Positions 23,541 through 25,025 of a DNA stretch of 39,433 nucleotides are shown piece after piece. The number at the start of each line of letters is the position of its first letter. Position 1 is the stretch's first letter. A program made the position numbers and the translations under genes. The notes under the pieces are model-generated. The model was not told the origin of the DNA and did no database searches. It saw only the letters and a program-made list of their open reading frames with translations. The DNA is from Akkermansia muciniphila. GTDB lineage: Bacteria > Verrucomicrobiota > Verrucomicrobiia > Verrucomicrobiales > DEV007. The DNA lies in contig CAMCXS010000055.1 of NCBI GenBank assembly GCA_945883495.1, positions 1 to 39,433 on the forward strand, in the 5' to 3' direction.

Positions 23541-23597
23541 ATTAGGAAATCTGATTTAAAACGCTGAAATCGCAAGATATAAATAAGATTTTCTAAT
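23541..23597. promoter_or_regulatory. 11-bp inverted repeat bracketing the sigma/xseA promoter region
   Basis: ATTAGGAAATC (23541-23551) and GATTTTCTAAT (23587-23597) are inverted copies with ten of eleven positions paired, separated by 35 bases. The left arm abuts the sigma factor ATG, the right arm overlaps the predicted xseA start of transcription. This looks like a pair of binding sites for one regulator controlling both divergent genes. Confidence 0.5.
23555..23583 (+). promoter_or_regulatory. predicted sigma70 promoter of xseA
   Basis: TTTAAA (23555-23560, 4 of 6) and TATAAA (23578-23583, 5 of 6) have an ideal 17-base spacer. The predicted start is near 23590, about 70 bases before the xseA ATG. 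The AT-rich setting in an otherwise GC-rich window supports it. Confidence 0.55.
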
Positions 23598-23660
23598 TCA
23601 TGCAGGGCGTGGCGCAAACAGTTGAGGACAGCCCTTGGCGCGCATGTTAGCTTGTTCTCC

Positions 23661-25025
23661 ATGCCAGCTCTGGTCTCCACCCGCGATGCCCTCACCGTCA
23701 GCGAGTTGACGCGGCGGATCCGTCAAGCTCTCGAAAGCGGAATCGGCCGGGTTTGGGTGGAAGGAGAAATCAGCAACCTGCGGCAGCAGAACTCCGGTCA
23801 CCAGTATTTCAGCCTCAAAGACGCCGACGCCCAGATCCGCTGCGTTTTGTTCCGCGGGCAAAACCGGGACCAAGCGCCGCTCCGCGACGGGATGCAGGTG
23901 CAAATCCAAGGCGATCTCTCCGTCTTCGAAGCACAGGGACAGTACCAAATCGTCGTCCGGATCGTGCAGCAGAAAGGGGTCGGCGAACTTCAGGCCCGGT
24001 TCGAGGCACTGAAGCGGCGGCTTGATGCGGAGGGGCTCTTCCGGGCCGAGCGCAAACGCAAAATCCCTCGGTTCCCCCGGACCATCGCCCTAGTCACCTC
24101 GCCCACCGGAGCGGCCGTGCGGGACATGCTGCACGTGCTGGCAAGGCGGGCGCCATGGGTGCGCATCATTGTGGCTCCGGTCCGGGTCCAGGGAGACGGT
24201 GCCCATGAAGAAATCGCCGCGATGATCCGGCGCATCAGCGAAGGGACCATTCCCGGACTGCCACCCATCGATACCGTCATCGTGGCCCGGGGCGGCGGGA
24301 GTATTGAGGACCTTTGGAACTTTAATGAAGAGTCCGTGGCCCGGGCGGTGGCCGAGTGCTCGATCCCGGTCATTTCTGGGGTCGGCCACGAGATCGATTT
24401 CACCATCTGCGACTTCGCGGCGGATTTGCGGGCCCCCACGCCGAGCGCGGCGGCGGAAATGGCCGTGCCGGACCAGACGGACTTGGCAAACTACCTGCAC
24501 CGGGCCCACGACCGAATGGAGACCTGCATTCGGTCGCGGATGGAGCAGTCGCGCCGACTTTTGGACTTGGTGTCCCGAAGCGCCGCGTTCCGCGAACCGG
24601 GCCGGATTTTGGCGGAGCGCCAACAACGGCTGGACGATTCCGCGCAACGGATGGAGTCGGCAATCGAAACCCGCCTGCACCGCCTTCGGGATCGGGTAAG
24701 CCACGCCACCCGCTTGGTGGAAATGAGCCGTCCCGACCGGCTTCTGGCCCAGCGTTCCGATTGGCTGCACATGCTGGGAGACCGGCTGAATCAAGCGGTC
24801 CACCGCCGACTGGAAGAACAACGTCAACGCCTCGTCCCACTGGGGAACTTGGTGCGAACTCTCGGTCCAGAATCCGTTTTGAAGCGAGGGTACTCGATGA
24901 CGGTGGACTCCGGCGGGAATGTGGTCAGCTCGGTGTCGGAATTGTCTCGAGGCAGCCGGTTGGTGACGCGGTTGCGCGACGGAGAGGTCGAAAGCGAGGT
25001 GAAGGACGTCAGGCCCGGCACATAA
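23661..25025 (+). CDS. xseA: exodeoxyribonuclease VII large subunit
   Basis: A 454-residue XseA, the catalytic subunit of the single-strand-specific exonuclease VII. An N-terminal OB fold (about 10-105: LTVSELTRRIRQALE, VWVEGEISNLRQ, GHQYFSLKD) precedes the catalytic core with TSPTGAAVRDML, VIVARGGGSIEDLWNFNEE and SGVGHEIDFTICDFAADLRAPTPSAAAE. A long helical region and a C-terminal VLKRGYSMT segment complete it. The ATG at 23661 fits the family; an in-frame TTG at 23622 is less likely. The small subunit gene xseB is not seen in the window. Confidence 0.94.
   Translation: MPALVSTRDALTVSELTRRIRQALESGIGRVWVEGEISNLRQQNSGHQYFSLKDADAQIRCVLFRGQNRDQAPLRDGMQVQIQGDLSVFEAQGQYQIVVRIVQQKGVGELQARFEALKRRLDAEGLFRAERKRKIPRFPRTIALVTSPTGAAVRDMLHVLARRAPWVRIIVAPVRVQGDGAHEEIAAMIRRISEGTIPGLPPIDTVIVARGGGSIEDLWNFNEESVARAVAECSIPVISGVGHEIDFTICDFAADLRAPTPSAAAEMAVPDQTDLANYLHRAHDRMETCIRSRMEQSRRLLDLVSRSAAFREPGRILAERQQRLDDSAQRMESAIETRLHRLRDRVSHATRLVEMSRPDRLLAQRSDWLHMLGDRLNQAVHRRLEEQRQRLVPLGNLVRTLGPESVLKRGYSMTVDSGGNVVSSVSELSRGSRLVTRLRDGEVESEVKDVRPGT

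Follow-up and report, generated by a model that had tools for sequence, protein, structure and literature searches.

Two 15-bp operators of a sigma factor gene, O1 and O2, are the best reading of the region between an ECF-type sigma factor gene and the divergent xseA gene in the window, i.e. the whole stretch of 39,433 nucleotides of DNA that was analysed. A sequence-only reading had proposed instead one inverted repeat shared by the two genes. Comparison with relatives makes it probable that O2 and O1 are the two operators of a single LysR-type regulator (LTTR) at the sigma promoter. The features concerned are collected in Table 1.

Table 1. Features of the sigma/xseA intergenic region, its flanking genes and the candidate regulator
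Feature	Position	Strand	Remarks
ECF-type sigma factor gene, 193 aa	22959..23540	-	Pfam Sigma70_r2, Sigma70_r4, Sigma70_r4_2
xseA, exonuclease VII large subunit	23661..25025	+	TIGR00237, 501 bits (cut-off 180); divergent neighbour
Arm 1, ATTAGGAAATC	23541-23551		part of the inverted repeat, sigma/xseA intergenic region
Arm 2, GATTTTCTAAT	23587-23597		partner arm of the inverted repeat
O1, candidate operator	23541..23555	-	sigma-strand sequence ATCAGATTTCCTAAT; directly adjoins the sigma ATG
O2, candidate operator	23583..23597	-	ATTAGAAAATCTTAT on the sigma strand; starts 42 bp from O1
TTGCGA, candidate -35 of the sigma promoter	23570..23575	-	at O2+22; invariant in 3 congeners
TTTAAA-17-TATAAA, promoter of the sequence-only reading	23555..23583	+	TTTAAA 23555-23560, TATAAA 23578-23583
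Candidate LTTR, copy of the window's genome	G000:C60:11574-12458	-	ortholog of the 'MHIETF...' group

The letters and coordinates of the proposed inverted repeat are exact, its arms pair at 10 of 11 positions, and arm 1 does touch the sigma ATG, given the extent of the sigma ORF. Taken alone the repeat is marginal: when the 60-nt core was dinucleotide-shuffled 1000 times, 26 of the shuffles contained an equally good one, and for the 120-nt intergenic region the count was 47 of 1000. It goes beyond chance because it is conserved in congeners. Invariant positions across the three of them (the window, G001 and G002) amount to 10/11 in arm 1 and 11/11 in arm 2, so the arms are indeed kept in relatives, a point on which the sequence-only reading had made itself depend.

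Comparison with more distant relatives makes a separate palindrome visible in each arm. The repeat is thus not the unit it was taken for; there are instead two separate 15-bp palindromes, one per arm, and the arms resemble one inverted repeat because two copies of a near-palindrome look so. Both O1 and O2 are imperfect palindromes with the consensus ATTAG-N5-CTAAT, each with one mismatch, and both show this dyad and the T-N11-A pattern of a LysR-type (GcvA-like) operator. Across the three congeners 14/15 positions of O1 and 15/15 of O2 are invariant, against only 14/27 in the stretch between them. Their equivalents in relatives are ATAAGTTTTNCTCAT, located immediately 5' of the ATG, for O1 and ATTAGAAANTCTAAT for O2, and the spacing of the two sites, 42 bp in the window's genus, is mostly 47–49 bp elsewhere. 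When the 11,264 five-base dyads with gaps of 0–10 were ranked over 35 sigma upstreams, a list partly selected for carrying the motif, ATTAG with gap 5 came first, being present in 33/35 upstreams (200 shuffles: mean 0.35, maximum 3). An RNA hairpin or attenuator was considered and rejected: on the sigma strand the O1 stem has a C-A mismatch, and the conservation, as judged by eye, is that of DNA palindromes.

The sigma ORF scores 88.6 bits with TIGR02937 (cut-off 42.9), and Pfam finds region 2 and region 4 only, region 3 being absent, as in ECF factors. Inspection by eye of the loci listed revealed no recognisable anti-sigma gene adjacent to the sigma gene. The 98 sigma loci used here, a part of all sigma matches, were combined with 80 among the loci listed; the resulting 176 proteins (≥120 residues) comprised 151 non-identical ones, from which a quick maximum-likelihood tree of 151 rows was built. 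In a clade of 35 sigma rows belonging to the same bacterial family (support 85), 26 rows carry the pair of sites, 7 a single site and 2 none, whereas sites were found in 0/56 rows of the neighbouring group, made up of the same genomes' second sigma copies together with sigma factors from other families. The next larger clade, with 38 rows, comprises 26 pairs, 8 singles and 4 rows without sites; outside of it, L020 and L024 have pairs and L009 has a single site. Chance complementarity in an AT-rich promoter region, for which the 26 equally good repeats per 1000 shuffles of 60 nt could be invoked, is extremely improbable in view of these sites in 33/35 sigma upstreams of one clade versus 0/56 in its neighbours, and of the same motif preceding unlinked genes.

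Although they carry the pair, the three sigma factors of the window's genus fall outside the 35-row clade: their branch is long and adjoins that of their own paralogs. It can be argued that the window's sigma factor belongs with the 35-row clade, its placement being unsure; because of this unsure long-branch placement, its orthology rests on the layout of the sites and on shared xseA synteny. Two side observations concern the sampled loci. A second sigma locus of G001 (contig C137, L125) has nearly the same upstream region as the L022 locus of G027, from another genus, and is probably on a contaminant contig. The sigma genes of L223, L256, L265 and L285, all titled Akkermansia muciniphila, are scattered among other Verrucomicrobiota, and these titles may be mislabels.

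According to the sequence-only reading, the inverted repeat would loop or co-repress the sigma gene and xseA, and so tie a DNA-repair nuclease to an ECF factor. The location of the sites between divergent sigma and xseA genes in 3 genomes of the window's genus and 4 of genus g13 speaks for it, as does the position of O2, 64–78 bp upstream of the window's xseA ATG, which was placed at 23661 by start similarity in congeners. We compared the xseA upstream regions more widely. Among 67 genomes with an xseA match, two were excluded, G031 because a contig end was too close and G069 because its gene is partial, leaving 65 upstreams, those of the window and 64 relatives. The sigma gene is immediately divergent from xseA in 8/65 (G000, which is the window's genome, G001, G002, G014, G025, G030, G035 and G006), and a sigma match lies farther away in three (G009, G016 and G018). 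The operator pair is found in 7 of the 8 divergent sigma-xseA loci, G006 being the exception, and in 0/57 of the remaining xseA upstreams. The 54 upstreams without a sigma match have no pair, and sites with ≤1 mismatch are limited there to a single position, in G088, G093 and G094, all of the same AT-rich genus.

The sites are also present where the sigma gene has another neighbour. At 22 sigma loci this neighbour is ftsH-like (Pfam AAA on the L111 copy, the FtsH name being our own reading), and 15 of them bear a pair and 6 a single site, only 1 being without sites, so that sites are kept at 21/22. All five scored sigma loci beside a zinc-type dehydrogenase (oxidoreductase; Pfam on the L008 copy) are without sites. 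Since the sites go with the sigma gene beside xseA and beside the ftsH-like gene alike, the operators are those of the sigma factor, in part of its family tree. The adjacency of xseA seems, from these comparisons, to be an accident of gene order in a few genera, and the suggested link between sigma factor and nuclease is not supported, although it may exist in the genera where the two genes adjoin. Looping fares no better: the genera differ in spacing, 42 bp against 47–49 bp, by roughly half a helical turn, and fixed-phase looping is therefore disfavoured. The promoter TTTAAA-17-TATAAA assigned to xseA is present in its letters, but its conservation in congeners fails, with only 2/6 and 4/6 positions of the two hexamers invariant, and it is absent from the sites returned by the promoter scan. 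Joint control of the sigma gene and xseA through one looping repeat is thus very unlikely, and what stands of the proposal is the idea of regulatory sites at the sigma promoter, which the conserved O1 and O2 support. Separately, ATGTTAGCTTGTT lies just 5' of the xseA ATG, at window positions 23644-23656. It hardly differs between congeners, is similar to ATGCTAGCTTAA of G006 and is perhaps a better xseA promoter candidate (TG-N-TA...T) than TTTAAA-17-TATAAA.

The position of the operators relative to the sigma promoter is best seen in the relatives. In 33 aligned rows, with the start of O2 as 0, TTGA is located at +26, its T, T and G being kept in 32, 31 and 32 of 33 rows, and 11 bp separate it from the end of O2; a half-site, CTWAT, lies ~20–30 bp upstream of O2. 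O1 follows at +47 to +49 in 32/33 rows, the remaining row (L013) being anchored on a wrong upstream site while its true site spacing is 49 bp. In those 32 rows the ATG comes 13–17 bases past the O1 start, and O1 ends at the start codon, 1–2 bases before it, or overlapping it. TTGA would be the -35 and TAAGTT, inside O1, the -10, with a spacer of 16–18 nt. Because this reading puts the start at or near the ATG, the sigma promoter of the relatives is probably leaderless, i.e. it would give an mRNA without a leader. TTGCGA (Table 1) is the positional equivalent of TTGA in the window's genus, where only 15 nt would separate it from the same O1 -10; it may be the -35 of the sigma promoter in this genus.

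Searching for the operator motif in the whole genome of the window (G000, 6.46 Mb) with ≤1 mismatch returned 12 places, versus 39 for the reversed pattern. The motif is therefore not enriched genome-wide. Two of the 12 places are O1 and O2 themselves, 4 are in tandem arrays on contigs C92 and C35, and 6 are others, for which no common gene was seen by eye. The tandem arrays (G000:C92, L032:1440-1600; G000:C35, L039:1440-1640) have coding-like units of ~42 bp, VTEQVTLVFLMDA, and contain ATTAGN5CTWAT by letters. A connection between the unit length and the 42-bp operator spacing was dropped as a coincidence, the arrays looking like minisatellites and not like promoters. Contig C35 also bears, ~50 bp past a ppc-like gene (L039:1354-1373), the palindrome GGATAAGATTTTCTTATCC, which could be a terminator or a site; its core, ATAAGATTTTCTTAT, is identical to O2 at 14/15 positions, on the plus strand. 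With ≤1 mismatch, G001 yielded 3 places (13 for the reversed pattern) and G002 yielded 4 (16 for the reversed pattern); one of the G001 places is at the probably contaminant sigma locus on C137. The sigma site alone is in common, and no second target common to the window's genus was found in these searches.

At the level of the family, the strict motif ATTAGNANNTCTAAT has 40 places in 30/74 genomes. Seventeen of them are in the AT-rich genus g16, which is also the source of 15/21 control matches. Outside g16 there are 23 places (control: 6), 16 of them before the sigma gene, counting G064, where a contig end intervenes and the assignment is inferred from an O1-like site 47 bp on, and 3 before a gene for a PQQ-type propeller protein; the remaining 4 are elsewhere or were left unexamined. 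Exact ATTAG-N5-CTAAT in eight chosen related genomes gave 13 places versus 5 for the reversed control; one LTTR gene is preceded by 5 of the 13, the sigma gene by 2 and the propeller gene by 3, and the other 3 are elsewhere.

The propeller gene (Pfam PQQ_2) was found in 18/18 genomes tested. It encodes a protein of 763–768 aa (three genomes), the N-terminus of which is signal peptide-like by eye; this beta-propeller protein is thus probably secreted. Its upstream region has a ≤1-mismatch site in 15/15 genomes outside the window's genus, 12 of these 15 carrying a pair 72–74 bp apart, and in 0/3 genomes of the window's genus. Six of the 15 genomes were first found via the motif, and the other 9, picked by protein only, constitute an independent test: ATTAG with gap 5 is present in 9/9 and has rank 1 of 11,264, with a mean of 0.08 and a maximum of 2 in 300 shuffles. 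In three g2 genomes (L184, L185, L191), the motif-bearing propeller gene has in its vicinity a further ECF-like sigma gene or the anti-sigma-like partner of such a gene, according to our own reading.

The third target is the LTTR gene itself. The motif is present in 7/34 of its own upstream regions (shuffle mean 0.075, maximum 1), one of the 34 rows, L366, starting inside the gene and having no real upstream. The seven belong to all 4 g13 genomes, both g11 genomes and the single g14 genome; the motif was not found upstream in G018, in 23/23 g2 rows or in 3/3 rows of the window's genus (g1). In the window's genus, the sigma gene is the only one of the three targets at which the motif was found.

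This LTTR, which we call 'MHIETF...' after its ortholog group, is with fair probability the binder of O1 and O2, as judged from the sites and genomes compared. Matches to HTH_1, the LTTR-type HTH, number 13 in G000 and are present in 10/10 genomes tested. Among 34 LTTR genes listed, only three ≤1-mismatch sites were found, and all are in the 'MHIETF...' group. The ortholog was found in 50/74 genomes of the family (E up to 1e-40), the window's copy having only 48% identity with that of G014. Over 57 genomes, both the LTTR and the sigma operator occur in 37, neither in 9, the operator only in 3 and the LTTR only in 8, a co-occurrence that is confounded and inflated because the LTTR and the motif share ancestry; the eight LTTR-only genomes include G064, where the sigma gene is cut by a contig end, and G071 and G073, for each of which a second sigma match was left out. 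Two of the LTTRs score 68 and 75 bits with the NCBIfam GcvA model (cut-off 288), and are thus not GcvA. Their best model is NF040786 (162–166 bits, cut-off 250), and none of the NCBIfam models shown exceeded its cut-off for these two proteins.

Another dimeric regulator, of the MarR type or another LTTR, could bind O1 and O2 as sigma operators and also control the LTTR and propeller genes. The motif and its targets are firm under either assignment, the LTTR being the binder predicted from sequence; in favour of this alternative, the LTTR gene is without a site in 27/34 upstreams, and G028, G033 and G081 carry the operator without a detected LTTR ortholog. We nevertheless regard another binder as unlikely. 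Sites of SlyA, a MarR-type regulator, are TTAGCAAGCTAA, with gap 4, as against gap 5 here, and no gap-4 dyad, as TTAG-N4-CTAA would be, is among the 25 dyads listed, where gap 5 is first. No LTTR ortholog group other than 'MHIETF...' has a ≤1-mismatch site among the LTTR genes listed. Finally, the motif is the one published for GcvA, itself an LTTR: PMC5002191 gives ATTAG-n5-CTAAT, in two copies in the regulatory region, with sites centred at -65 and -43 of gcvB, 22 bp apart, and describes a T-N11-A box for LysR-type regulators. Upstream of E. coli gcvB (NC_000913.3), ATTAGTTTTTTTAAT has 1 mismatch to the motif.

From the motif, its conservation, the positions of its copies and the three target genes, which are read in the sequences, we infer a binder and its action, a transcription start and the involvement of a ligand. 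O1 would cover the predicted -10/+1, and O2 would lie just upstream of the -35. LTTRs often activate from a position just upstream of the -35. An LTTR on O1 would block RNA polymerase, and a dimer on O2 would be placed where activation is possible. This blocking by O1 and activating position of O2 would together amount to ligand-dependent control of the sigma supply, with the LTTR setting the amount of sigma factor. The factor under such control would be one without a recognised anti-sigma gene alongside. In other genera, the same motif also stands at the PQQ-type beta-propeller gene, and three genera have it at the LTTR gene too.

Whether the parts form one circuit is an evenly balanced question. 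Across a Verrucomicrobia family, one LTTR may directly gate three genes: that of an ECF sigma factor, leaderless and with no anti-sigma gene adjacent, the LTTR gene itself, and a gene for a secreted PQQ-type propeller protein. The operator spacings, 47–49 and 72–74 bp, are target-specific and conserved, and in the window's genus the circuit may have been reduced to the sigma gene alone, its two sites re-spaced to 42 bp. For sigma factors lacking an adjacent anti-sigma gene, the mode of switching is in question. The prediction made here is that a one-component regulator sets sigma supply via two operators at a probably leaderless promoter; it names a candidate regulator, specifies the sites exactly and limits the targets to a small, testable set. 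In the literature searched, we found neither a three-gene LTTR/sigma/propeller circuit nor such a regulon in the phylum Verrucomicrobia, and no report joining LysR-type regulators, ECF sigma factors and Verrucomicrobia or describing a sigma factor gene divergent from xseA.

In autoregulated ECF systems, the sigma gene is controlled at its own promoter. The same holds for the control predicted here. In contrast to these systems, the sites are palindromic operators at a housekeeping-like promoter (TTGA...), and an anti-sigma gene was unrecognised by eye beside the sigma gene in the loci listed. GcvA operators (PMC5002191) are like O1 and O2 in being 15-bp inverted repeats, ATTAG-n5-CTAAT, in two copies, and the T-N11-A pattern of LysR-type regulators fits ATTAG-N5-CTAAT. 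They differ in their spacing, which is 22 bp for GcvA against 42–49 bp at the sigma gene and 72–74 bp at the propeller gene; a spacing of ~22 bp as at gcvB was found neither in the window (42 bp) nor in the relatives (47–49 bp). The regulator's own gene bears a site in three genera (7/34 upstreams), though not in the window's genus. Unlike the case of LysR-type regulators in general, the sigma gene has no recognised LTTR gene beside it, and the regulator is predicted to act on it in trans.
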